A stretch of DNA of 64,000 nucleotides from Anaerolineae bacterium (GTDB lineage Bacteria > Chloroflexota > Anaerolineae > Aggregatilineales > J027): contig JAJTXY010000019.1 of assembly GCA_021463865.1 (NCBI GenBank), forward strand, positions 1-64,000, in the 5' to 3' direction. The notes beneath the pieces are model-generated. The model worked only from the letters and a program-made list of their open reading frames with translations, ran no database searches and had not been told where the DNA came from. Numbering within the stretch: the stretch's first letter is position 1; each line of letters begins with the position of its first letter. Positions 14,858-27,807 of the stretch are shown piece after piece. A program made the position numbers and the translations under genes.

Positions 14858-16279
14858 CTAGAACTGATTCCAGTAGTATTGATTGGTGACTTCGTGGTGG
14901 AATTGAATTTCGGCGGGCTTGATCTGTGAACCCAACAGGCGTGGGCAGCGATCAGCCGAGGCTTGCTTCAATGCCGCATAGCGTTCGCAAATCTCGTCTC
15001 CCAATACTTGTCGGACAAACACCCCGCCACAGAAATCGGAGATGGCGTCATAGATGTTGTCGGGCAGGATCGCATCCGGGGAGAGATGAGTGCTAATTTT
15101 TCCTTCGAGGCCTGTGCGGAACAATGTGTAAACCGCGAGGTAGGGATTGGCGTCGGGCGCGATGGAGCGGACTTCTATACGGGCCGAACGCGAATTACCG
15201 ATTGGAATACGCACCATGCTGCCCCGGTCAATCGGTGACGCCTTGATTTGATTGGGCGCTTCATAGTGGGGGTCGAGACGGCGGTAGGCATTGACACTGG
15301 GGTTCAGAACCAAGCAAATTTCGCGGCCAACGCTCAAAATACGTTTCACAAAATCCCATGCGAGACTAGAGATGCCATCTTGACCATCTTTTTGATAGAA
15401 CAGATTGGTGTCGCCTTTGGAGATGGACATATTGGTGTGCATCCCGCTGCCATTCACCCCAGTTACGGGTTTCGGCAGGAAGCTGGCGGTCAAATCCATT
15501 TGCTGCGCGACTTGGCGGGCCACCAGTTTATACAGTTGAATCTGATCGGCGGCAATCACGGCTTCCGAATAGGAGTAGTTCATTTCAAATTGCGACGGGG
15601 CGACTTCAGGATGATCTTTTTCATTCGCAAACCCCATCGCACGCTGCACTTCCGCAGCCTTGTCAATAAATGTGCGCAGTGTATCGCCGGGGAGCGAATG
15701 ATAGTAACCACCTGTCGAAACAAACTCAAATTGACCCGTTTCAACATAGCGTTGTTCAGCATGGCGACCCCGGAAGATGAAACCCTCAATTTCATTGGAT
15801 AAGTTGAAGGTATAACCGTTCTTTTGATATTGGTCGGCAGTATACAACTTCAGTGCCGAACGCATGTCGGCAGGATAGGGGCCACCCTCACGCTCCAAAA
15901 CTTCACCGAAGACCAAGACTTTGCCGGGGCCAAATACATCGGAGGGCAGCCAATAGAACGCCGACCAGTCAATGCCCAAGCGCAGGTCGGATTCGGATTG
16001 TTGGCTAAAGCCGCGTACTGATGAACCATCGAAGGTGAGATTATCGGCAGCTTTCAACAGGAATTTCTTGTCATAATCCAGCATGTGGAAGCGGCCTTCG
16101 AGGTCGGTGAAGCAAACCGTCACGGCCTTGATACGCTTTTCATCCGCCAAATAACGCATCCGTTCTTCACGGATAGTATCGGCTGAAACACGATTTTGGC
16201 GTTTTGTTTTTGCCTCAAGATTCAGCTCTTCTAGCTGTTCATAGGGAATTTCGAGGAAGTTGCGGAGTGATTCAGACAT
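14858..16279 (-). CDS. glnA: Glutamine synthetase
   Basis: This 473-residue type I glutamine synthetase has the beta-grasp domain with LTFDGSSVRGF, the metal-ligand Glu in NEIEGFIF, the ATP and ammonia region NGSGMHTNMS, NPSVNAYRRLDPHYEAP near the glutamate site, and IPIGNSRSARIEVR. It makes glutamine from glutamate, NH3 and ATP and is the main route of ammonia assimilation. It is monocistronic. Upstream, between it and the divergent gene at 16509, lie two inverted repeats (16374-16389 and 16401-16423) that could be operators. The ISAs1 element ends 35 bases beyond its stop. Confidence 0.95.
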   Translation of the reverse strand: MSESLRNFLEIPYEQLEELNLEAKTKRQNRVSADTIREERMRYLADEKRIKAVTVCFTDLEGRFHMLDYDKKFLLKAADNLTFDGSSVRGFSQQSESDLRLGIDWSAFYWLPSDVFGPGKVLVFGEVLEREGGPYPADMRSALKLYTADQYQKNGYTFNLSNEIEGFIFRGRHAEQRYVETGQFEFVSTGGYYHSLPGDTLRTFIDKAAEVQRAMGFANEKDHPEVAPSQFEMNYSYSEAVIAADQIQLYKLVARQVAQQMDLTASFLPKPVTGVNGSGMHTNMSISKGDTNLFYQKDGQDGISSLAWDFVKRILSVGREICLVLNPSVNAYRRLDPHYEAPNQIKASPIDRGSMVRIPIGNSRSARIEVRSIAPDANPYLAVYTLFRTGLEGKISTHLSPDAILPDNIYDAISDFCGGVFVRQVLGDEICERYAALKQASADRCPRLLGSQIKPAEIQFHHEVTNQYYWNQF

Positions 16280-16400
16280 AACTACCTAACCTTCTATATG
16301 TTTTGACGAACGACATGGCGTTGGAATAATATCGGGCAAATTGTATTCACTTCTCAAATTTCTGAAGCCTATTTTGTGAATTTACACAAGGGTCAATTTT

Positions 16401-16423
16401 TTACCCCCTCACTTTGGGGGTAA
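16401..16423. promoter_or_regulatory. Perfect inverted repeat in the glnA divergent region
   Basis: TTACCCCC and GGGGGTAA form perfect 8-bp arms around a 7-base spacer. A second smaller repeat, TTGTG with CACAA around 6 bases, lies at 16374-16389. Neither is followed by a T-run, so an operator is more likely than a terminator. The C-run/G-run form recalls the csoR operator at 3938-3962; the regulator is unknown. Confidence 0.5.
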
Positions 16424-16508
16424 TCCACAAGAGTTTCGCTTGACATTTTGAATTTTTAAAATGCGTTAGAATGGGTATGACGGATTCAACCTATACGTGG
16501 AGGCATTC

Positions 16509-17081
16509 ATGAAACGGCCTAAACATAAGCAGAACCCCAAAGCAACCACTATACCGTTGCCAGCGAACCACACATGGAAAGCACCCGAAGGCTACAAAAT
16601 CGTGGTATTGGAGCGTGGTTTGGTGAGTTTCAACGTGCCGGATACATGGATTGTGGCAAAACTCGAGCCGTTTGAACTGCATGACGCCGACCCACCCAAT
16701 GATAATGCCCGGTTGACTACCTCGTTTTGGCGGCTACCTGTTGGGGTAGATTGGAGCGGACTGCCATTGGATAAGATGCTGGTTGATTCCACCAACGATA
16801 GCAAAATGAAAGTCCTTGCCAAAAGTGAGCTATTCCGGGTCAGCCGTCCGGGTGTTGAAATCGTGTGGGTCGAACACCGTTTTGAAGACACCGAGAATGA
16901 CAATCGTGAGGCCTTTACCCGTATCCTAGTCGCACGTGGGTGGAATGTTCAGATACTGATTACATTCGACTTTTGGGTGGACGAGGCCGCGAAATATGAG
17001 GCCGCGTGGGAGGAAGTCATTCGTTCGCTGATACTGGGCCGTTATATCCAAGACCCAACCAAGCCACCACTCGACCACTAA
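16509..17081 (+). CDS. Conserved hypothetical protein, PsbP/DUF1795-like fold suspected
   Basis: The 190-residue soluble protein has no signal peptide and a basic Lys-rich start. The stretch VSFNVPDTWIVAK, followed by alternating strand-like segments (ARLTTSFWRLP, VEIVWVEHRF, VQILITFDFW) and a closing helix ending WEEVIRSLIL, resembles PsbP-like or DUF1795 proteins of unknown role. The start at 16509 is chosen because GTGGAGG stands just before this ATG; an upstream GTG at 16497 falls within that ribosome site. It is divergent from glnA and a strong hairpin follows. No function assigned. Confidence 0.75.
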   Translation: MKRPKHKQNPKATTIPLPANHTWKAPEGYKIVVLERGLVSFNVPDTWIVAKLEPFELHDADPPNDNARLTTSFWRLPVGVDWSGLPLDKMLVDSTNDSKMKVLAKSELFRVSRPGVEIVWVEHRFEDTENDNREAFTRILVARGWNVQILITFDFWVDEAAKYEAAWEEVIRSLILGRYIQDPTKPPLDH

Positions 17082-17096
17082 TCTGAACCAATCGTA

Positions 17097-17129
17097 CCTG
17101 TCACTATGTGAAACTAAAGTAGTGACAGG
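17097..17129. terminator. Bidirectional stem-loop between convergent genes
   Basis: CCTGTCACTA and TAGTGACAGG form a perfect 10-bp stem with a 13-base loop. It sits between the 3' ends of the plus-strand hypothetical gene and the minus-strand SHMT-like gene. T-runs are weak on both sides, so it may be factor-dependent. Confidence 0.6.
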
Positions 17130-17139
17130 CGCTTTAGTC

Positions 17140-18498
17140 TCACCGTTGAGCGACGGGCCAGCCGTTATCGAAGTTATAGTAAAAATCCTGCATGGGCAGG
17201 CGGAAATCTTCCACATCCCGCCGCACCGATTGTGAGTCTTCGCCATTCACCAATACCCGCGCCATAAACTCGGCAATCGTCTCCATGTCCTTTTCCATCA
17301 TTCCCAAGCGCGTCACTTCAATCGTCCCCATTCGTAATCCGCTGGGACGATCCCAATCCGCCGGAGTATCACCGGGAATCAGGTTCTTATTGGAGATGAT
17401 ATTGGCCTCCGCCAAACGATGAGCCACTTCTAATCCACCTCCAAATTGGCGCACGTTGGCAATCACTTGATGGGTACGGGTATAGCCACGATGGGCCGCT
17501 AGGACTGGAATACCGCGTGAATCTAATGCTTGGCCGAGGGCTTGAGCGTTCTTGACGATCTGCGCCATATAAACCCGTCCAAATTCAAGCATCTCTGCGG
17601 CGGCGACGGCCAATGCTGCCACACGATTGACCTGATGTGTCGCCACCAACACTGGAAATATGGCCTCGGTTATGGGTTTGGTCAACGATGGGTCGTTCCA
17701 CATGATCATGCCGCTCTGTGGGCCACTGAAGGTTTTGCCCGCCGAGCCTGTCAAAATTGCCGCGCCTTCAGCTAATGGGTCTTGGAATTGACCACCCGCG
17801 ATAAGGCCCGCTTGGTGCGCCCCATCAAACACAAATTGACCGCCCCACTCCGCAATAATCGAGGCCATCTCACGCACGGGCAGGGGAAAGAGGGTCATAG
17901 ACATACCCATCACCACCAATCTGGGACGAATGCGTTGAGCTTCTTCGGCAAATTTATCTAAATCTACTTCAAGTTCATCTGGGTCATAGGGAATATCGTA
18001 GATTTCGAGGCCACGTGTACCCGCTGGCCCGTCGGGGCGATTGCTCGAATGCCCGCCAAACGGCTGCGACGCGGTCATCACGCGATCACCCGGCTGGACA
18101 AGCGCATGATAAACCGCCATATTGCCCAACATGCTCCCCATCAGACGATGATCGGCATAGTTGCAGCGAAAGACCTTCTTGAGCAACTCGACGCACAATG
18201 ACTCGACCTCATCAATGTACTGTGTCCCCGCAAACCAACGATTGACCCGTCCGATATGTCCTTCGGCGGCGCGTGTCCCGATTTCGGATGCCAATAGCCG
18301 ACGTACAGTAGGGCTAGTGGGAGCTTCGGGAGCTAAGAGATTGATACAGCGTTTGCCGCGCCATTCTTCATTGCGTTGCACCGCCGCAATGACCGCATCG
18401 GCCATGCCTTTGGGAGAATTTGCTTTTTCGAGGATGACCCGTGCATTTTCCAGAATCGTAGGATCATGCACTTCAAATTGGGATGAATTATTTGTCAT
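17140..18498 (-). CDS. Serine hydroxymethyltransferase-like PLP enzyme
   Basis: The 452-residue fold-type I PLP protein is related to GlyA. It has INLLAPEAPTSPTVRRLL and a gapped RVNRWFAGTQYIDEVE in place of the usual KYAEGYPGxRYYGG. The cofactor Asp-His pair is in VFDGAHQAGL and the Schiff-base Lys in TGSAGKTFSGP (about residue 250). The changes around the substrate region suggest a paralogue acting on another beta-hydroxy amino acid, for example a methylserine or threonine-type substrate, rather than housekeeping GlyA; this is inference. AAAGGA precedes the ATG. It is encoded 14 bases downstream of a GntR regulator, probably one operon with control by its own substrate. Confidence 0.85.
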   Translation of the reverse strand: MTNNSSQFEVHDPTILENARVILEKANSPKGMADAVIAAVQRNEEWRGKRCINLLAPEAPTSPTVRRLLASEIGTRAAEGHIGRVNRWFAGTQYIDEVESLCVELLKKVFRCNYADHRLMGSMLGNMAVYHALVQPGDRVMTASQPFGGHSSNRPDGPAGTRGLEIYDIPYDPDELEVDLDKFAEEAQRIRPRLVVMGMSMTLFPLPVREMASIIAEWGGQFVFDGAHQAGLIAGGQFQDPLAEGAAILTGSAGKTFSGPQSGMIMWNDPSLTKPITEAIFPVLVATHQVNRVAALAVAAAEMLEFGRVYMAQIVKNAQALGQALDSRGIPVLAAHRGYTRTHQVIANVRQFGGGLEVAHRLAEANIISNKNLIPGDTPADWDRPSGLRMGTIEVTRLGMMEKDMETIAEFMARVLVNGEDSQSVRRDVEDFRLPMQDFYYNFDNGWPVAQR

Positions 18499-18512
18499 CG
18501 TAACCTATTCCT

Positions 18513-19154
18513 TTACATTTCTGACCTTAGAAAAGTCGCTAAGGTGGTGGAGGCCGATTGGAGATGCTGGCGAAGTAACTGAACGGCTTGTGGCCTGTTT
18601 CCAGCACGGCAGGCTTGCAAAATCGCGTAATGTTCAGACTGGGAAGTGGTTTGAAAACCGAGGTCATTGAGATAGAGCACCAGATAACGCGCCACATTGA
18701 TATGCAGGGGTTCCAAGATACTTATCAATCGGGGCAGTTGGCCGGCTTGGTACAATTGGGCGTGAAATTGCCAATTGAGTTCCGTCCAACGGGCCACATC
18801 GGTCTCAACATCCATCACCCGCAGTGTGTTTTCGGCCTGCATCAATTGGGCTGGTGTATGATGTGGAATCGCCGATTCAAGGGCGACGGTTTCCAAAGCG
18901 ATGCGGATGGTATAAATCTCACCTGCCTCTGCTGCATTTAAGCTCGAAACAAAAGCGCCGCGATTGGGGTGCAATGTTACCAACCCTTCGACTTTGAGTT
19001 GCACCAAAGCCTCGCGGATAGGAATCTTGCTAATGCCTAGTTCTTCAGCGATTTTGTCTTGGCGCAGGGGTTCATTACTTTTGATCTCCCCGCGTAGAAT
19101 TGCCATCCGAAGATATTCCGCCACATACTCGGCAGTGTTTTTGGCTAGTACCAA
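18513..19154 (-). CDS. GntR family (FCD/FadR subfamily) transcriptional regulator
   Basis: About 213 residues. The N-terminal winged helix contains LRQDKIAEELGISKIPIREAL, the hallmark GntR recognition helix, and HPNRGAFV forms the wing. The helical FCD domain follows, with metal or effector residues in the DVARWTELNWQFHAQLY and QSEHYAIL helices. The TTG at 19154 is preferred because GGAGGGG stands 5 bases before it; the frame stays open to 19217 but that part overlaps the promoter. It probably represses itself and the downstream SHMT-like gene through the palindrome at 19196-19207, responding to an amino-acid-type ligand. Confidence 0.88.
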   Translation of the reverse strand: MVLAKNTAEYVAEYLRMAILRGEIKSNEPLRQDKIAEELGISKIPIREALVQLKVEGLVTLHPNRGAFVSSLNAAEAGEIYTIRIALETVALESAIPHHTPAQLMQAENTLRVMDVETDVARWTELNWQFHAQLYQAGQLPRLISILEPLHINVARYLVLYLNDLGFQTTSQSEHYAILQACRAGNRPQAVQLLRQHLQSASTTLATFLRSEM

Positions 19155-19189
19155 TCGTCCCCTCCAATAATCTACACTATTCGTATAAT

Positions 19190-19217
19190 TGTATAATCGT
19201 ATACGATTTTCTGTCAA
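19190..19217 (-). promoter_or_regulatory. Promoter of gntR with palindromic operator in the spacer
   Basis: On the minus strand TTGACA (19212-19217) and TATACA (19190-19195) are 16 bases apart. The perfect 12-bp palindrome ATCGTATACGAT (19196-19207) fills most of the spacer, and a related half (TTCGTATAATT) continues downstream at about 19180-19190. A dimer bound there would block RNA polymerase. The TTG start at 19154 fits this layout. Confidence 0.75.
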
Positions 19218-19329
19218 GATATACAGAACAAAGTCACCTAAACCAGTGACTTACTCGCTTGCCGCCCCAAAACATTTCATCTACAGTCATTTTTAGAGTC
19301 AAAACTCGAAATTAGGGAAATGACCCTTG

Positions 19330-19863
19330 ATGAGCGAATTACCCAAAACGAAGCGTATTTTGGTTGTCTATGCCTCACGCGGCGGCACAACCCGCGAAAT
19401 AGCCGAGCAGATAGCCGAGACTCTCCGTCTTAAGGGAATAGGGGTAGAAACCGCCGCAGTAAAGAAGGTGTCAAACGCAGGCGACTATGACGTGATTGTG
19501 TTGGGTAGCGCAATTTACTTCCGGCGCATGATGCCATCCGCTGTTCGTTTTATCCGACAAAACACGAGCATTTTGGAGTCTTGCCCAGTCGCAGTTTTCA
19601 GTGTTGGCGCTCAAATGAGAAAGCCTACTCCCCAAAATCATGCCCTTGTCGAGAAGTGGGTTCGTAGAGGCTTGAGGCCCTATCCCAACATCCAACCCAT
19701 TGCAGTGGAGCATTTCGCCGGGGCAGTCGCATTCAGACGACTGAATGTATTGTGGCGTGTGCTGCTGATTATCACCTTTGGGGAACGGGGTGATTGGCGG
19801 GATTTAAACGCGGTACGCACTTGGGTGAATCATATCTACCCCCTATTGGTTAACGAGATTTAG
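19330..19863 (+). CDS. Flavodoxin-domain protein (HemG-like)
   Basis: The 177-residue protein begins with the flavodoxin FMN-phosphate loop YASRGGTTREIA, followed by VIVLGSAIYFRRMMPSAVRFIR, typical of the menaquinone-dependent protoporphyrinogen oxidase (HemG/flavodoxin_5) group. HemG oxidises protoporphyrinogen IX for haem synthesis; other members only carry electrons. No haem genes are nearby, so the substrate is uncertain. The ATG at 19330 is chosen over the adjoining TTG at 19327. Its end overlaps the convergent modB by 14 bases. Confidence 0.85.
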   Translation: MSELPKTKRILVVYASRGGTTREIAEQIAETLRLKGIGVETAAVKKVSNAGDYDVIVLGSAIYFRRMMPSAVRFIRQNTSILESCPVAVFSVGAQMRKPTPQNHALVEKWVRRGLRPYPNIQPIAVEHFAGAVAFRRLNVLWRVLLIITFGERGDWRDLNAVRTWVNHIYPLLVNEI

Positions 19864-20743
19864 CGGAATCTTGCCGATCTTCGCGGCTCAGTAGCTGTAC
19901 TACAAACAAAACACTGGCAGCAATACCAATCAAAATCAGAGCTGTCCAAAGGGCTGCTGGAATATTCTGCTGATAGGTCTTATAAATCAACAGCGTCATG
20001 GTTTGGGTACGTCCCGGCGCACTGCCCGCGAACAAAATAGTCGCCCCAAATTCACCCAGCGCCCTTGCCCAACTCATCAAAGCCCCTGTCAGCAAGGCCC
20101 GACTGGAAAGCGGTAAGGTGACTAACCAGAAACGACGCCAGCGTGAAGCGCCATCCACCAAAGCAGCGGCCTCGATTTCACGATCCACATGATTAAACCC
20201 GACTTGGGCTGACCGCACATAAAAAGGCATTGCCACAAAGGTTTGGGCCAAAATGACGGCATAGCGGGTAAAGGTCAGTCGAATGCCTAAATCCATTAGT
20301 GTCGGGCCAAGCAATCCACGTCTGCCGAACGCAACCAACAGTGCAAAACCAGCCACCGCTGGAGGCAACACAATAGGTAGCTCAACCAGCACATTCAACA
20401 GCCGCCGACCCCAAAAGTGACCGCGTGACAGAACATAGGCCAATGGCGTTCCAAGTAGCAAAATCAGCGCGAGGCTTACAGTGGTGGTCTGGAAAGTGAG
20501 GGAGATGGCTTGGGGGAGAAGTGGATCGGCTCCCGCTTCCCATGCCTGTTCTTGGTAGACGCGGTAAATGAGAGAACCTAAAGGCAAGGCGATCAACAGA
20601 ATCGCCAACAGAAACAACAGGGCAAGACCGCTTTTCCCCAAAAGGTTGATTAGCCAGCGGAAACCCTGCAAAACATAGGGGATTTTGTGAAAAGGGGTGA
20701 CACGCACATCACCCCGACTCCCTTTCGTCTCTTGGATATCCAT
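19850..20743 (-). CDS. modB: Molybdate ABC transporter permease
   Basis: This 297-residue permease has about six membrane helices and the conserved cytoplasmic EAA-type loop (REIEAAALVDGASRWRRF) that couples to the ATPase. The motif VELPIVLPPAVAGFALL is characteristic of ModB/CysT permeases. It imports molybdate (or tungstate) delivered by ModA. It starts 6 bases after modA, with AGGA ahead of the ATG. The expected ATPase gene modC does not follow; the next gene is convergent. The N-terminus has about 35 extra polar residues before the first helix. Confidence 0.93.
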   Translation of the reverse strand: MDIQETKGSRGDVRVTPFHKIPYVLQGFRWLINLLGKSGLALLFLLAILLIALPLGSLIYRVYQEQAWEAGADPLLPQAISLTFQTTTVSLALILLLGTPLAYVLSRGHFWGRRLLNVLVELPIVLPPAVAGFALLVAFGRRGLLGPTLMDLGIRLTFTRYAVILAQTFVAMPFYVRSAQVGFNHVDREIEAAALVDGASRWRRFWLVTLPLSSRALLTGALMSWARALGEFGATILFAGSAPGRTQTMTLLIYKTYQQNIPAALWTALILIGIAASVLFVVQLLSREDRQDSAKSR

Positions 20744-20749
20744 TGAATC

Positions 20750-22006
20750 CTATTCTACAGGTGGAGCGTCACGCACTTCCAAGCTGACCAAGCCACTTAC
20801 ATAACGGCCACCCCGATCATCACCGGGAACCACCAATTGTGGTGCATCCAAAGCCGTCCCATCTTTTTCAAAAGCGACTAAGATAGGTTGATTGCCAAAT
20901 TCAGGGTCAATCTCACCCCATGCGATGACGGCCTGAAATCCATTGCCACCTGTCGCCACGATATAGAAGCCCAGTTTATCATTGCCTACGTCGGCATTAA
21001 AATTGACCTGTGCGCTACTCAAAATATCCCATAACAACACGCCTGTGAAACTTGCACTAACAGTATCCTCGCCGCCGAGATACATCACTTCAGCTGTTTG
21101 GGAGGGATAAGCGCGTAGATTATCCATAGTCAAGATGAGTGGGTTATAAACCTGTCCCCCCACATGCAGGGTGCCATCGCTTGGAAGGCTGATAGTGTTA
21201 GGGATTTCTGGAATTCGCACTGAAATAAAATTCCAAGCCACTAGGATATCCTGACCCGCATCCGACAGCACGTAATCAATAAACGCTTGGGTCAATTCTT
21301 TATTGGGTGAATCGTTGGTGATGCCAATTGGATAGGTCGCCAGTGTGTTATAGGCGTCCGGCACACTTATCATTTTGACATCTTCGGCAATATCCGGCGT
21401 GACATCCGAAACATAGACTAGGCCCGCATCGGCTTCCCCTAATGCGACCTTTGCCGTAACCTGCCGTACAGTGTCCTCTTCAGAAACGACATTATTAAAA
21501 AAGGCTGTCTTAAACTCTTCGCCATAGCCTGCCACGTCGACCAGTTTGTCGACCATCGCGTTAGTGTAATCGCGTACTGGAACACCTTCGGCTGCAATCA
21601 CCAGCAACACCCCATCGTTCGATAAATCATGTAAAGTCTCGATGTCAGCAGGGTTATCGGCAGGCACAATCACGACTAAGCGATTTTTGGCGAACGTATA
21701 CGTTTTGCCTTCAATCCGACCCGCATCTTTCGCCACCTGCATTTGCCGATTATTGGCACTCGCAAAAATATCGGCAGGCGCACCCTCGGCTAACTGGGCG
21801 GCGAGATCGGATGATGCCCCAAATTGAAATTCGACGTTCACTCCCGGATTGGCAGCCTCAAAAACCCTACCGATTTCCTCGAAGGCATCCGTCAGTGAAG
21901 CAGCAGCTAGGACGGTCAGGGTTGTGTCTTGGGCATAGGCATGGTGTGGAACAAAAAGCAGCAATAATGCAACAACTAAAATAACCGACAAAGCACTACG
22001 TTTCAT
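20750..22006 (-). CDS. modA: ModA molybdate-binding protein fused to a molybdopterin-binding domain
   Basis: The protein has 418 residues. A signal peptide (basic start, hydrophobic core, cleavage near YAQD) is followed by a full ModA domain with AASLTDAF, FGASSDLAAQL and GAPADIFASA, which bind the oxyanion. From about residue 283 a second domain begins, with VGGQVYNPLILTMDNLRAYP, GVLLWDIL and WGEIDPEFG; this resembles the molybdopterin-binding domain of sulfite oxidase-type oxidoreductases. ModA is normally only about 250 residues, so the tail is an unusual addition. It lacks the conserved Cys expected for Mo coordination in that family. GAGGAGG precedes the ATG, and the start overlaps padR by 11 bases. 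Confidence 0.88.
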   Translation of the reverse strand: MKRSALSVILVVALLLLFVPHHAYAQDTTLTVLAAASLTDAFEEIGRVFEAANPGVNVEFQFGASSDLAAQLAEGAPADIFASANNRQMQVAKDAGRIEGKTYTFAKNRLVVIVPADNPADIETLHDLSNDGVLLVIAAEGVPVRDYTNAMVDKLVDVAGYGEEFKTAFFNNVVSEEDTVRQVTAKVALGEADAGLVYVSDVTPDIAEDVKMISVPDAYNTLATYPIGITNDSPNKELTQAFIDYVLSDAGQDILVAWNFISVRIPEIPNTISLPSDGTLHVGGQVYNPLILTMDNLRAYPSQTAEVMYLGGEDTVSASFTGVLLWDILSSAQVNFNADVGNDKLGFYIVATGGNGFQAVIAWGEIDPEFGNQPILVAFEKDGTALDAPQLVVPGDDRGGRYVSGLVSLEVRDAPPVE

Positions 22007-22544
22007 CTAATTCCTCCTCATTGAACGGGACAAGTTCGCAGCGATCAATCCACTGCAAAATTGCACCGAGTTGGGCAATCTGCAATTCTACTGCCAAAAA
22101 GCCAATCCCCGGTGCTGTTTGGTCACGTTGAGTCAGCAAATGATGATGGGCTTTCATACACGCCTTTTTTTGATACTCCACCAATGCGGCTGTTGGCCTA
22201 TTCTGCAAACGGGCAATATACAATCGGCTCAGAAATTCGACCCGCACACACCGGATACTAGATAGGGGAGACGGGTTGTACAGCCATGTTTCAAAACGAT
22301 TCTTTCCCTGTGTCGTAAGCGTATATTCGGTGCGTGTTGGCGCATTAATGACCTCAATCGCTTGCCCCACAATCAGCCCCTGCTGTTCAAGACGTTTTAG
22401 TACGGCATACAACTGGCTGGTGCTTAAATTCCACACCTGCCCTAGCTTGGTTAGGTCTCGGAAATGTTCCAACAATTGATAGCCATGGCTGGGTTGGATT
22501 GCCAATAAGCCTAACAGCACTTCGTCGGGTGTTAACTGGCTCAC
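21996..22544 (-). CDS. PadR family transcriptional regulator
   Basis: The 182-residue protein has an N-terminal winged helix with LLGLLAIQPSHGYQLLEHF and STSQLYAVLKRLEQQGLI, the PadR hallmark, then a hinge (RTEYTLTTQGKNRFETWL) and a C-terminal helical dimerisation domain. PadR proteins usually repress their own operon and release DNA on ligand binding. It is the first gene of padR-modA-modB and overlaps modA, so it probably governs molybdate uptake. This is an unusual choice, since ModE normally does this. The inverted repeat over its own -10 (22576-22594) is the likely operator. Confidence 0.9.
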   Translation of the reverse strand: MSQLTPDEVLLGLLAIQPSHGYQLLEHFRDLTKLGQVWNLSTSQLYAVLKRLEQQGLIVGQAIEVINAPTRTEYTLTTQGKNRFETWLYNPSPLSSIRCVRVEFLSRLYIARLQNRPTAALVEYQKKACMKAHHHLLTQRDQTAPGIGFLAVELQIAQLGAILQWIDRCELVPFNEEELDET

Positions 22545-22575
22545 AATACTGCTACCTTGACGTAACCACAGCCCA

Positions 22576-22605
22576 CTATTCTAACATGGAATAGATTACA
22601 AACAA
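22576..22605 (-). promoter_or_regulatory. Promoter and operator of padR-modAB
   Basis: On the minus strand TTGTTT (22600-22605) and TAGAAT (22578-22583) are 16 bases apart, with TG one base before the -10. The inverted repeat CTATTC-N7-GAATAG (22576-22594) covers the -10, a natural repressor site for PadR. Confidence 0.6.
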
Positions 22606-22611
22606 ATAACA

Positions 22612-23649
22612 TTAGGGTTGTAGTGGCTTCAGGTATACCGTAATTTCACTGCGATTATGAAACAACTGACGTGCCCCGGCAATGCCATAGGCTTTGCGTA
22701 AAATATCGAAGGTCTGTTTAAGAACAGGCTGTCGATCTTCTTCGGGCAATTTGAGCGTCATCAATCCTGCCCCGTGAGGATAGAGAAATGTGGCATAGGA
22801 AACCATGACACGGGCTGAATCACGGGCATCCATCCGCATATCGTTGACAATCAGGTCATAAAAATCTGGTTCATCTTTGAGATAGGCTTGGGCAGTCATG
22901 CGTAAATAGCGAATCCCGTCATCTCCCTTAAGCCGAATATCTAAGCGGGCCGGGTCAATCGCGGTGACATACTGCCCCTTTTGGCGTAAAATGCGTGTCC
23001 ACCCCCCCGGCGCAGCACCTAGATCAAGGGCCAACCCGCGCACAGGCAGTTCAACTTTAAAGACCTCTAGCGCCTCTAATAACTTAAACTCGGCACGGCT
23101 GATTTGTTCGTCTTCGTGCATAAAACGGCGCATCCCCCCGGCCCAATCCGAGATATTCAGCATCGTTGGAGAAAGGCCAAGATAGGCAATGGCTGGATTT
23201 TGGGCGACCACTACTGACAAAATTTGCAGGGGCTTACGGACATCCAGTGGGGCATCGGTAGACTCGTGAATCAGATTGGCAAGGGCGGTATTCACATCAA
23301 AGGGCTTAAGCGGATAGTTCTTGCTCAAAATACGGGTTTGCACTGAAAAAAGCAGTTCAGGGTCAATTAATTCATTAAATTCCACCGCGACAGCCTGCAA
23401 TAGGTCGTCTAAATCCTGCGGATTGGAATGTAAGGATACGGTCACTTGGACGGGGCAAAGATGGCGCACAAAAATGGGTGGCTGTTGATGCCATTTTTCG
23501 GCAAACTCCCAATAGGAATCCCCTAACTCAACTAACAGTACACCGGGGGATAAAATTTCTTCAATATGGGCATTTGCGGCAGCTTCTTTTAATTCATGGC
23601 GGGCAAGGTCAACGGAATCCGGGTCACAGGTCAAAATGGCTTGAGGCAT
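22612..23649 (-). CDS. FtsJ/RlmM-like SAM-dependent RNA methyltransferase
   Basis: About 345 residues. The N-terminal half resembles a THUMP-like RNA-binding region. The C-terminal Rossmann methyltransferase domain has the SAM motif LDLGAAPGGWTRIL, an Asp in IVNDMRMD and a Lys in LKLPEED, giving the K-D-K type catalytic set of 2'-O ribose methyltransferases such as RlmM (23S rRNA C2498) and RlmE. The upstream SRAEFKLLEAL segment supplies the first Lys. The ATG at 23649 is chosen because GAAAG stands before it; the frame is open to 23703. Precise rRNA target unknown. Confidence 0.88.
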   Translation of the reverse strand: MPQAILTCDPDSVDLARHELKEAAANAHIEEILSPGVLLVELGDSYWEFAEKWHQQPPIFVRHLCPVQVTVSLHSNPQDLDDLLQAVAVEFNELIDPELLFSVQTRILSKNYPLKPFDVNTALANLIHESTDAPLDVRKPLQILSVVVAQNPAIAYLGLSPTMLNISDWAGGMRRFMHEDEQISRAEFKLLEALEVFKVELPVRGLALDLGAAPGGWTRILRQKGQYVTAIDPARLDIRLKGDDGIRYLRMTAQAYLKDEPDFYDLIVNDMRMDARDSARVMVSYATFLYPHGAGLMTLKLPEEDRQPVLKQTFDILRKAYGIAGARQLFHNRSEITVYLKPLQP

Positions 23650-23715
23650 AACTTGTCTTTCATAAGGGGCGATTGATTGAACCAACCACCCCACACTAAC
23701 CACATGGGTAAAGAT

Positions 23716-25047
23716 TTACTGGGCCGTACTGGTCGAATATTGGAAGGGCGTCACCGTCGGTGGGAAGCGATAAGGTTGCGTTGGAATCAGTGTCGGTGGC
23801 GGGCCATCCGCTCCCAACGATCCACGCCACGCCGTTTCCATATCTACCAGCGACATGCTCGTAACAATCTGCAAGGCATCATTACGCGGTGTACCTGTCG
23901 CCAATTCATGGATAAGTTGATGATGAGCTTCCAATCCAAAAGTATCGGTCAGCCACACAAAAAACGTGTAGCCAATATCATACCCCAAGCGCCCTTGTCC
24001 GTCTGGCCCTGTTTCAAAAGAGATCGGGCCGTCACCTTCCAACAAAATGGGCAATTCGTCATGCTGAGCCAGATTCCGCACACGCCGGACATAGCTGTAC
24101 TGCTGATCGAGTTCAAAAAAGGTAGCATTGCCTTCCGTAAACCATGAACCAGCCGGGAAAGCATCCGGGGCCATATGAAATTGATAGAGATGCCCAATTT
24201 CATGCAGCACCGTGCCATAGGCAAGGCGACGGGAATCCTCATCCGAAATAACCTGCACCGTCGCACCCCAGTCATCGGAGGTCTGTCCAATCACACTACT
24301 GCCACCGAACGCATCCCGCCACCGCTGGAAATCTGTTTGGTTGGAAAAGAGAATGACGCGCGGAATATAGGGCAGAGGTTCCCCCCACGCCGCGATAAAG
24401 GTCTCGTGTTGTTCTGCGACTGCCGCCACCGTCAAATCCAAGATTTCTTCAGGCAGGCCAGATTGAATATAGACAATCACATCCTCGGATTCAGTGCGCT
24501 CCCATTCATCCCCAGAATCCGCATATTCATTGCCCAAAATCCAGTCGGTGCGATAGCGGTTGCCCTCACTATCGGCAAAACTCCAATAGAAATTGACGGC
24601 GACCCAAGGCGGCAAGGATTCATCCGGACGCCAGCGCATCGAGACATGGCCCGTTCGAGTATCAATCTCGGCATCGCGCCGGGTCAGTTTACCGGGGACA
24701 TGTGACCAAATCACGGAGGCTTGGACGATCTCCCCCTTATCACTGCTGGCAACCGTCGAAAAACCAAATCCGTTAGGATAATAGCTTTCAAAATCACTTT
24801 CACTGACTGTCCATGTGGCATCACCCTCACTGGTGCCGGGTAAATAGTAGGGCAAATCCCATTGTGTGGTTTGCGTATACCAATCATCACCAAACGGTGT
24901 AGGGGTCGTGGTTATGCCCCCCTGAGCAGATGCGGTCAAATTAACCACCAGCAGCACGGAGAATAACAATCCCCACACCGCCAGAAGTGCTGGTATGATA
25001 AGGCGGCGTTGACGAGCAGGGTTACGATAAGATTCAGGTGTCACCAC
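23716..25047 (-). CDS. Membrane-anchored or secreted gluzincin metalloprotease (peptidase MA-like)
   Basis: About 443 residues. An N-terminal hydrophobic segment (LLAVWGLLFSVLLVVNL) anchors or exports it. The middle is a beta-rich domain, and the C-terminal half has the zinc motif HEIGH in VLHEIGHLYQFHM, followed about 20 residues later by WFTEGNATFFE, whose Glu is the third zinc ligand of the peptidase MA/gluzincin fold. It acts outside the membrane; the substrate is unknown. GTG at 25047 is preferred since AAAGGA lies 5 bases before it, but the frame is open from 25065. Its 5' end lies head to head with the glycosyltransferase gene and the two may overlap. Confidence 0.87.
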   Translation of the reverse strand: MVTPESYRNPARQRRLIIPALLAVWGLLFSVLLVVNLTASAQGGITTTPTPFGDDWYTQTTQWDLPYYLPGTSEGDATWTVSESDFESYYPNGFGFSTVASSDKGEIVQASVIWSHVPGKLTRRDAEIDTRTGHVSMRWRPDESLPPWVAVNFYWSFADSEGNRYRTDWILGNEYADSGDEWERTESEDVIVYIQSGLPEEILDLTVAAVAEQHETFIAAWGEPLPYIPRVILFSNQTDFQRWRDAFGGSSVIGQTSDDWGATVQVISDEDSRRLAYGTVLHEIGHLYQFHMAPDAFPAGSWFTEGNATFFELDQQYSYVRRVRNLAQHDELPILLEGDGPISFETGPDGQGRLGYDIGYTFFVWLTDTFGLEAHHQLIHELATGTPRNDALQIVTSMSLVDMETAWRGSLGADGPPPTLIPTQPYRFPPTVTPFQYSTSTAQ

Positions 25048-25073
25048 AATATTCCTTTCCATCACAACTCGAC

Positions 25074-26924
25074 ATGTTAAAGTTTAAGCGAAATTTCAGA
25101 AAACTAAACTCAGAAAAACTACCATCATGGCTGGCTCTCCTTGGTTCAGTGCTTGTTCTGCTATTGGCAGCATACCTGCGTATACACCACCTCGACGCAA
25201 ATGGCTTATGGGGCGATGAGGGTTGGTCAGTCGAATTTTCCGAACCCAGCAGTCCGGCGCTTGTCACCCGTAATCTAGTAGATGATTTACACCCCCCATT
25301 GTATTTCGTAACACTCAGTGCATGGCGGCAGGTTGCGGGGGACACCGAAATTCCGATGCGGTTTTGGGCGGTATGTCCGGCTCTTTTGTCTATCGCGCTG
25401 GTAGACCGGATTGGGCGGAAGTTGTTCTCACCCTCTGCCGGAATCGCGGCGGGATTGGTCTTGGCGATTGCCGATAAACATATTTTGCTCTCACAAGAAG
25501 TACGGCATTATCCCCTTGCCTTTATGTGGATGGCAGCCAGTAGCCTCGTATTTCTGCTGTGGCTGGAAAACCCGACCCGCCGACGCACTTTGCTTTATGC
25601 GATGCTCATCATCGCGGGTGTCTATACCCATTATTACACCACCCTCATCTTGCCGGTTCAGGTCATCTACGCCACGCTGGTACTGTCTCCACGAAGGTGC
25701 ATCTGGCACTTACTCGGCATTATGGGTCTATCACTGCTGGCCTTCGCGCCTTGGGCCATTGTCGCCGTGCATCAACTATTGATTCGGCCCGAAGGCATCC
25801 TTCATTCCATGTCCCTGTCGTGGGAGACCGCCGATACCTTGACGATTGATTATTTGGGTAGACCTGTCATCTTGGGCATTGGATTAATATTGGTCGGCAG
25901 CTTGGCGTTCAAAAATCGTCTGCAATGGAATCAATCCCCTACTGTGTGGTATCCGGTGTTATGGTTGGGTGTGCCGATTGCCATTTCAATTGTGGTCTAT
26001 CCGCTGGTGACAGTGCTGACAGATCGTAATCTGGCCCTGCTGCTGCTGCCGATTGCCATTCTCGCGGGGCATGGCATCGTGTCTTTTCGTCCACCCGGAC
26101 GTGTTATTCTTGCGGTGTTGGTATTGGTGAATGGGCTTGCCAGTACCGATTCGCGCTATGTTCAACCCGATTGGCGCACCATGGCCCGCTATGTCACCCA
26201 AAATTACCCGATTGGTGAACCTGTTTTGATGGACGTGCGAGGCGGTGACAAAGCTCTCGCCTATTATCTACGGCGCTATTTACCCCCTGACACGCAGGTT
26301 ATTTCACTGAATCAATGGCGTATTGACTACGGCATCTATTTTCAAGGGCCTGTACAAGATTTGCTTCAGGCCAATAACGGTTTCTGGGTCGCCTATTGGG
26401 GGGATGGCCCATACGAAATGGACAGCACCTATCAAAATTATGGTTATACCCAAACCGCCATGCACCGTTTTTATCATCTTGGGGCACCGATTGACTGGTA
26501 TCATTATGACCGTCTGCCGACGAGCGATGAGGTTCTGGGAATTTTTGGCGATTCCATCCAACTGCATCGGGTCAAAACGACCTTTGAGGTTAAGCGAGGA
26601 GAACCATTAACCGTCAGTTTGTGGTGGAGCACCGCCGAAAAGCTCACCATTAGCTACAGCGTCTCCGTATTTTTGCTCGATGGCAATGATGTCCTTCGCG
26701 CTCAACACGACAGTGCCCCACAAAATGGACACTCCCCCACCAATTCTTGGACACCGAATCAGGTGGTGCTGGACAGCCATGCGGTAAAAATTCCCAAAGA
26801 TTTGCCACACGGCGACTATTTATTGGCCGTCAAAGTGTATAACTCTGCCGATGGGCAAATCTTGCATATTCTGACAGATGGTGCTATAGAGTATCTCATT
26901 ATTGGGACGGTGCAGGTGCGCTGA
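25074..26924 (+). CDS. GT39-type polytopic glycosyltransferase
   Basis: About 616 residues with roughly ten membrane helices. The first outside loop carries the catalytic acidic motif GDEGWSVEF and LHPPLYF, as in GT-C glycosyltransferases of the dolichyl-phosphate-mannose mannosyltransferase (GT39/ArnT-like) group. The C-terminal 200 residues are soluble and beta-rich. It would move a sugar from a polyprenyl phosphate to a protein or lipid outside the cell. The frame is open from a GTG at 25038; ATG at 25074 is taken because basic residues then precede the first helix, but no clear ribosome site marks either. It is divergent from the metalloprotease gene with almost no promoter space. Confidence 0.85.
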   Translation: MLKFKRNFRKLNSEKLPSWLALLGSVLVLLLAAYLRIHHLDANGLWGDEGWSVEFSEPSSPALVTRNLVDDLHPPLYFVTLSAWRQVAGDTEIPMRFWAVCPALLSIALVDRIGRKLFSPSAGIAAGLVLAIADKHILLSQEVRHYPLAFMWMAASSLVFLLWLENPTRRRTLLYAMLIIAGVYTHYYTTLILPVQVIYATLVLSPRRCIWHLLGIMGLSLLAFAPWAIVAVHQLLIRPEGILHSMSLSWETADTLTIDYLGRPVILGIGLILVGSLAFKNRLQWNQSPTVWYPVLWLGVPIAISIVVYPLVTVLTDRNLALLLLPIAILAGHGIVSFRPPGRVILAVLVLVNGLASTDSRYVQPDWRTMARYVTQNYPIGEPVLMDVRGGDKALAYYLRRYLPPDTQVISLNQWRIDYGIYFQGPVQDLLQANNGFWVAYWGDGPYEMDSTYQNYGYTQTAMHRFYHLGAPIDWYHYDRLPTSDEVLGIFGDSIQLHRVKTTFEVKRGEPLTVSLWWSTAEKLTISYSVSVFLLDGNDVLRAQHDSAPQNGHSPTNSWTPNQVVLDSHAVKIPKDLPHGDYLLAVKVYNSADGQILHILTDGAIEYLIIGTVQVR

Positions 26925-26946
26925 CCACAATTTGCGGGAGAGAACC

Positions 26947-27807
26947 ATGCGGATAACCAGATTTCTTTCGATTGGGGCAGTCATCACCCTGTTGATGCTG
27001 ACATTGGTCGCATGTTTGGAGGATGATGATCCAACGCCCGGCCCACGTCGCACCCTCAACGTCCTCGATAATGCCGTGCAATTGGGTGAAACCCAACAAG
27101 CCGCGACCCGTAACGCTGTTTCTAATGCCACCCAATCCTTTGAACAAACCTTAAGTGCTTACCAAACCTCCATCGCCCCACCGACGCAAGCCCCTATCCG
27201 CCTGCGCAGCCCTCAACCACCCCCAACAGCCACTGATGCGCCTGAAAATGATATTCTTGGCAACATCATTTATCCGGGAAATTGGTTGGAAATGCCCTTC
27301 ACTACCATTGAGGGACAAGAGGAATCATTGAGCAGTTTTGAGGGCAAGATTATCGTGCTATTGCCCATGTCGTTGGACTGCCTACCTTGTCAAGAGCAGT
27401 TAGCGTTTGCCCGTGACACTGATCGTCAGTTCCGCCTTGATGGTGTGGCATATGAAGTGGTCTACCTTAATCTCAATGTCAGTCCATTGGATGAACTGGA
27501 TAACCTCACCGTATGGGCAGAGGGACAGGGATTTGAATCCACCGAACAGTTTACATGGGTAACTGGAAAGGCCTCCCCCGAATTGGTAACAGCCCTCAAC
27601 GCGGCATTTGGTGGCAGTGCGTTAAATTTGCAGCGCACCCCAATACTCATCGTTGACACAAAGGGACAAGGGCACACAGCGGCTGAAGAGGGAATGCTAA
27701 TTAGCAGTCGTCTGCGGGATGTGATTGTGTTTTATAGCGACCAAGCCACGCCAGCAGAAGTGAGTGGAGGCGAAACAGAAGCAACGGAAGAAGTCACGTC
27801 TCAATAA
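26947..27807 (+). CDS. Thioredoxin-fold lipoprotein
   Basis: 286 residues. An N-terminal lipoprotein signal ends in the lipobox LVAC, then a Gln/Ala-rich linker and a redoxin domain. The active pair is in LDCLPCQEQ (CxxC), and a TPILIVD segment supplies the conserved cis-Pro. It would be a membrane-tethered thiol reductase or oxidase outside the cytoplasm. GGGAGAG lies before the ATG at 26947; the frame is open from 26902 but those residues overlap the previous gene. It follows the glycosyltransferase gene by 22 bases, so they are likely cotranscribed. Confidence 0.85.
   Translation: MRITRFLSIGAVITLLMLTLVACLEDDDPTPGPRRTLNVLDNAVQLGETQQAATRNAVSNATQSFEQTLSAYQTSIAPPTQAPIRLRSPQPPPTATDAPENDILGNIIYPGNWLEMPFTTIEGQEESLSSFEGKIIVLLPMSLDCLPCQEQLAFARDTDRQFRLDGVAYEVVYLNLNVSPLDELDNLTVWAEGQGFESTEQFTWVTGKASPELVTALNAAFGGSALNLQRTPILIVDTKGQGHTAAEEGMLISSRLRDVIVFYSDQATPAEVSGGETEATEEVTSQ

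Follow-up and report, generated by a model that had tools for sequence, protein, structure and literature searches.

Here, we identified, within a 64,000-nucleotide stretch of DNA from an Anaerolineae bacterium (hereafter the window), a gene whose product appears to be an extracytoplasmic molybdate receptor (ModA) carrying at its C-terminus a domain of the sulfite oxidase (SUOX) fold that has been deprived of the Mo-ligand Cys. We infer that this tail is a ligand-binding accessory domain and not an enzyme. The explanation that we favour, although we would put it somewhat short of an even chance, is that the tail is a non-catalytic extracytoplasmic domain that most likely binds a PruR-like, pterin-type ligand and thereby tunes ModA. 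The gene is part of a compact padR-modA/SUOX-modB operon (Table 1), and the same SUOX subfamily recurs, although not always, beside molybdate transporters.

Table 1. Features of the padR-modA/SUOX-modB region (positions are those of the window)
Feature	Position	Strand	Length	Basis
modA/SUOX fusion gene	20750..22006	-	418 aa	ORF, domain profiles, predicted fold
Putative Sec-type leader, residues 1-25 (..HHAYA/QD)	21932..22006	-		By eye from sequence
ModA domain, residues 30-258	21233..21919	-		PF13531, TIGR01256, PDB ModA chains
SUOX-fold tail, residues 269-418	20753..21202	-		PF00174; predicted model; fold matches
Codon of Gly311 (SUOX Mo-ligand Cys position)	21074..21076	-		Alignment by profile with sulfite oxidases of plant and chicken
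Codons of conserved motif VVPGDDRGGRYVS (residues 392-404, Arg401)	20795..20833	-		Alignments
padR-family regulator gene	21996..22544	-	182 aa	PF03551, 1.2e-14
modB permease gene	19850..20743	-	297 aa	PF00528; TIGR02141

The fusion ORF starts with an ATG at 22006 and its stop codon ends at 20750. By eye, the putative leader contains no lipobox Cys, and A25 and Q26 are invariant in an alignment of 13 fusions. The original prediction of a complete ModA domain was borne out by profiles and by PDB sequence matches: Pfam SBP_bac_11 (PF13531) matched residues 30-258 at 6e-51, the modA equivalog TIGR01256 was covered from position 1 to 216 of 217 with 168.3 bits (cut-off 62.5), and 13 PDB sequence matches of the ModA part were obtained at E<=1e-10, including E. 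coli ModA (1amf). We used as reference the Ser, Ser, Val and Tyr positions that we take to be the molybdate contacts of E. coli ModA; the corresponding Ser37, Ser65/Ser66, Val180 and Tyr198 are kept on the 1amf alignment and are invariant in the 13 fusions. Because the positions aligned with these oxyanion contacts are kept, the ModA part looks functional. The site of P. aeruginosa ModA is given in PMC9171197, where variation between species is also remarked upon. Compared with ModA as defined by TIGR01256 and PF13531, the fusion protein is alike in its near-full model match over the equivalog cut-off and in the modB gene that follows directly, but a further folded domain (~150 residues) is attached to it, its operon includes a padR gene and no modC lies alongside.

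The tail had been said to resemble the molybdopterin domain of sulfite oxidases, and the domain search and the structure prediction both agreed with this. When the tail was scanned alone, PF00174 (Oxidored_molyb) scored 26.8 bits, above its gathering score of 24, and was the sole Pfam family listed at E up to 10; in the whole fusion protein it scored 22.9 bits, slightly under the cut-off of 24. In an alignment of 26 tail homologues, 23 rows likewise matched PF00174 (E<=0.01, best 1.3e-14), with no other family listed. The tail model predicted from this 26-row alignment was confident (mean pLDDT 92.1, pTM 0.87), and sulfite oxidases and PruR can be superposed on its residues 8-147 (276-415 of the fusion). 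At E<=0.001, Foldseek listed 34 rows, every one of them either PruR or an enzyme of the SUOX family, among which nitrate reductase was counted. VIA-align, for which structural neighbours with Z below about 7 were left out, aligned the model with 2xts (Z 16.2, rmsd 2.0, 125 residues), 2blf and 3hbg (both Z 16.0) and PruR 7rkb (Z 14.8, rmsd 2.3, 121 residues). The full-length AlphaFold model has a mean pLDDT of 66.8 with tail segments <50 and gives no inter-domain geometry, whereas the tail modelled alone with the deeper alignment folds well. Two other candidates for the tail, a sterol carrier protein (PDB sequence search, E 1) and 9ncf (PDB profile search, E 0.011), were rejected, being absent from the good fold matches.

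Sulfite oxidase, sulfite dehydrogenase and YedY (PF00174) share the domain fold of the tail, with Z values reaching 16.2 and identities of about 20-26%, but the tail is joined to a transporter receptor and is without the Mo-ligand Cys. The dimerisation domain that sulfite oxidases carry in addition is missing from the tail, as it is from YedY. In profile-based alignments with sulfite oxidases from plant and chicken, the Cys of QCAGNR falls on tail position 43, that is, Gly311, and the 418-aa fusion protein contains no Cys at all. A shorter alignment to sulfite dehydrogenase was shifted by one residue and placed the Cys on Leu310; both residues are non-Cys. The 12 other fusions have Ser (11) or Asn (one) at this position. 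Thus, the absence of an obvious Cys ligand was confirmed, and the doubt about catalysis expressed in the original prediction is supported by profile, fold and alignment together. On the other hand, in alignment A2 the Cys is present in 10 of the 14 actinobacterial standalone rows (FxCxxxGxRRH), with Thr in the remaining four and in the Mesorhizobium row; since these ten retain the Cys, the tail family is not uniformly cofactor-free.

To look for the same architecture in relatives, which the original prediction had proposed as a check, we used a set of 61 genomes (the own genome and 60 relatives). Any match to the fusion was found in 36 of them, and eight, own included, matched end to end. The seven others comprised four genomes of the same genus (79-91% identity) and three from two other families of the order (60-66% identity); matches in the remaining 28 genomes were partial and mostly covered the ModA region. 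When a species-genome collection was scanned with the tail profile, 74 loci were obtained, 12 of which (L062-L073) were fusions, six of them on contigs common to the 61-genome set. Eleven of the 12 were titled Chloroflexi or Anaerolineae and one Bacteroidetes. The latter (L066) is a 9-kb contig with the gene order of the Anaerolineae contig L067, and it is probably misbinned. Further fusions with both domains above cut-off came from two other families (G205, 536 aa; G221, 553 aa; G113, 414 aa, which is cut by the contig end). In an even class sample of 199 genomes, 114 matched the fusion profile, and among the matches listed only the own genome had a two-domain match, although a diverged tail could escape such a search.

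In the phylogenetic tree of the SUOX domain, the 13 window-type fusions formed one clade (97/90), and G205, G221 and G113 were placed elsewhere among unfused copies, with weak deep forks. The ModA tree contained a window-type group of 30 (95/99) that leaves out the same three proteins and has unfused members both basal to and within it (L150 and L152 with L071, 98/93). Over the starred branches, at least one change of the fused label is forced on the SUOX tree and at least three on the ModA tree. Judging from these topologies, the fusions of G205, G221 and G113 are probably independent of the window-type fusion, and the likeliest history appears to be one of independent fusions and at least one tail loss.

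The operon is tightly packed. The 3' part of padR and the start of the fusion share 11 bases, and only 6 bases separate the fusion stop from modB, whose product scored 211.4 bits against TIGR02141 (cut-off 182.6). A padR homologue was found upstream in all 12 other fusion loci and a modB homologue downstream in 10, the exceptions being L068 and L069. An additional SUOX gene, leaderless by eye, lies between the fusion and modB in L066 and L067, and a mobA-type gene scoring under the MobA equivalog cut-offs is found above padR in L068. Within the window, no modC adjoins the operon. In the own genome nothing exceeded the cut-off of TIGR02142 for modC, a weak result because only one of 14 control genomes passes the same cut-off; the transporter ATPase may be shared with another system. 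The own genome has a moaA above cut-off and therefore probably makes Moco, and it encodes two other PF00174 proteins that score stronger than the fusion tail. A search of positions 16000-27000 against Rfam for an RNA switch gave no match at E<=1.

We also examined the distribution of tail relatives and their linkage to molybdate genes. In a sample of 400 Chloroflexota genomes, the tail had matches at E<=0.001 in 49 and strong matches (>=80 bits) in 12, own included. Among the 11 other strong regions, three were fused to modA, four had modA within about 2 kb of an unfused SUOX gene (L139, L140, L141 and L143), and in four (L145, L146, which is a short contig, L147 and L149) no modA was found. 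The gene order in L140 is modA-modB-yqeB-like-SUOX (yqeB 196 bits, under the cut-off of 220), and in L143 a SUOX gene, a gene for a leaderless ModA-like protein and padR are divergent from modA-modB. In a control limited to flanks of about 1.5 kb, six of 11 strong tail matches had modA nearby, versus one of 18 weak ones; the sensitivity of this control was unequal, as four of the six positives matched with their own ModA as query, although all six had been found earlier with the window ModA. The single weak positive (L044, 56 bits) was the strongest of the weak set.

Outside Chloroflexota, the tail-profile scan of the species-genome collection gave 62 loci (61 in Actinomycetota and one in Mesorhizobium), for which up to 6 kb of flank was fetched. 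A ModA or ModB match was present in the flank of 22, a count that has no background control, and the fetched flank of the other 40 had no ModA, ModB or PadR match. Examples include a Streptomyces locus with SUOX, a MerR-TOBE protein, modA and modB in order (L100), a Planotetraspora locus in which SUOX faces an ABC-ATPase/TOBE gene, modB and modA (L091), a Nonomuraea locus arranged alike by eye (L083), and the Mesorhizobium locus with SUOX, modA, modB and, by eye, an ABC-ATPase-like ORF. Seven plasmid records also contained a tail relative, five of them with usable annotation: a Deinococcus plasmid with the order modA-TOBE-SUOX-permease, Nostoc plasmids with two closely similar loci that contain modD and a Mop-type protein, a Pseudomonas plasmid with moaA and nar genes, and a Rhizobium plasmid with no Mo gene found within 5 kb. 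Among 61 genomes around Mesorhizobium (itself included), the A2 profile gave strong tail matches in three, two of which had no mod gene within 1.5 kb. Linkage of the tail family to Mo genes is frequent but far from universal. Small SUOX proteins annotated as 'molybdopterin-dependent oxidoreductase' (such as Deinococcus WP_124874670.1, 43.7%) are related to the tail in sequence, and some of them are encoded beside mod genes; unlike the tail they are separate polypeptides, and many of the actinobacterial ones are leaderless by eye and keep the Cys.

A functional precedent is PruR, which PMC13259868 describes as a periplasmic protein that has lost the Cys, binds reduced pterins and, in PruR-DcpA systems, acts on the periplasmic domain of its partner. 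The tail is like PruR (PDB 7KOS, 7KP2, 7KOM, 7RKB) in its SUOX fold, in its extracytoplasmic place (leader by eye) and in the loss of the Mo-ligand Cys, and the sizes are about 150 aa (within a 418-aa protein) versus about 170 aa for PruR. However, identity in the structure alignments is 15-21%, PruR has Trp at the Cys position where the fusions have Gly, Ser or Asn (a column placed via the sulfite oxidase alignment), and the tail is fused to ModA and has padR and modB as neighbours, with no adjacent DcpA or DTB partner; PruR is encoded in a two-gene operon with a regulator of the DcpA or DTB type. In addition, PruR was not reached by sequence, either with tail-family profiles against the PDB, by searching it with the relatives from Mesorhizobium and Rhizobium, or with the A2 profile in the 61 Mesorhizobium-centred genomes. 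With neither the Trp nor DcpA, the tail is, as judged from sequence, not PruR.

A pterin-type ligand is favoured because PruR shares the fold, the approximate size, the periplasmic place and the missing Cys; the absence of the PruR Trp and the failure to find PruR by sequence mean that pterin binding need not carry over. The ligand of the tail would most likely be a pterin, either a small one in reduced form or a fragment of molybdopterin. Its binding could alter the loading of the attached ModA or its docking to ModB, whereby molybdate uptake would follow pterin or cofactor status. The original prediction had inferred that the tail may bind the cofactor or sense molybdenum use outside the cell, a suggestion that stays conjectural, given that the ligands of PruR are small reduced pterins and that its pocket is reported as unlikely to accommodate full Moco. 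It is possible, if doubtful, that the tail belongs to a cross-phylum family of mod-locus SUOX proteins that gate molybdate uptake by sensing pterin or molybdopterin outside the cytoplasm, in which case the fused forms in several Chloroflexota lineages would be two-ligand (molybdate and pterin) receptors.

Other explanations of the tail were also considered, of which a structural role and cofactor salvage compete seriously with the favoured one. The former, which we regard as rather unlikely, is that it binds no ligand and serves solely to anchor ModA or to dock it, whether on ModB or on the cell surface. The leader without lipobox would suit an anchoring role, tandem SUOX copies exist, some of them without modA near (L145 and L147), and the tail seems dispensable since the unfused ModA relatives L150 and L152 nest within the fused group of the ModA tree. 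However, an unfused ModA of the order (L152) likewise lacks a lipobox, and the tail parts that are best conserved across phyla in the alignments, PGDxRGGRYVS and DGYQxVI..GEIDPxFG, fit ligand binding better than a scaffold.

Less probable still is a salvage function, in which the tail would capture Mo cofactor outside the cell, either intact or as a Mo-pterin breakdown product, and ModA would take the released molybdate. SUOX folds bind molybdopterin, the tail is directly coupled to the molybdate receptor, and in a profile alignment the Arg of PGDxRGGRYVS falls on that of the GARSVKW segment of plant sulfite oxidase, a residue that we assume to contact the cofactor in SUOX enzymes. Moco-synthesis genes also adjoin some loci (the mobA-type gene of L068, the yqeB-like gene of L140 and moaA on the Pseudomonas plasmid). 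Against such salvage stand the loss of the Cys ligand and the statement in PMC13259868 that the pocket of PruR, which is of similar size, is likely unable to hold full Moco.

That the fusion protein is an active molybdoenzyme whose Mo is bound by Ser, or by some other ligand, instead of Cys is very improbable: Ser is present at this position in most of the other fusions and is a known Mo ligand in other Mo enzymes (PMC13259868), but Gly occupies it in the window protein and Asn in one relative, and PruR is a precedent for a Cys-free SUOX fold that is not an enzyme. An accident of assembly, reading frame or annotation that joined neighbouring genes could be dismissed almost entirely, as many relatives are metagenome-assembled genomes but the whole fusion recurs in eight of 61 genomes (own included), in 12 loci of the other collection (six shared) and in two other families.

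The 2018 survey of molybdenum use (PMC6147048) listed new SO-family fusions, and ModA is absent from its Table 4. Likewise, the covered passages of PMC7759655 mention no ModA/SUOX fusion, and a search for ModA together with Oxidored_molyb yielded, in the parts of the texts covered, only PF00174 named among search families. No description of a ModA/SUOX fusion was found in the literature searched, a scope outside which most subscription papers and domain-architecture databases fall. The ModA and SUOX domains are both known. That tail relatives recur next to mod genes in several bacterial phyla suggests a helper or sensor of molybdenum uptake that has apparently gone undescribed. The known control of molybdate uptake is exerted within the cell, through Mo-binding regulators and riboswitches. 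If our favoured pterin-binding reading is true, a pterin-type domain on the outside receptor would make uptake responsive to the state of the cofactor's organic half. Transporter biology would then be joined to the pterin signalling known from PruR, and a testable role would be available for many small 'molybdopterin-dependent oxidoreductase' proteins, which possibly are not oxidoreductases.

Several minor observations were made at these loci. In the window, a gene for a Flavodoxin_5 protein (19327-19863, plus strand) is convergent with modB, and it is kept next to the operon in all four loci of the same genus (L062-L065). Proteins with tandem SUOX domains are encoded in L141, L144, L145 and L147, with modA near or not, and several have lipoprotein-like leaders by eye. 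The leaderless ModA-like protein of L143 (8050-8808, PF13531 121.8 bits), encoded between the SUOX gene and padR, is perhaps a cytoplasmic molybdate sensor. The actinobacterial SUOX proteins of L074-L109 (such as L076, 5956-6435) are ~155 aa long, leaderless by eye and Cys-keeping; some of their genes are located near MerR-TOBE regulators and modAB, and these proteins are a possible cytoplasmic counterpart.
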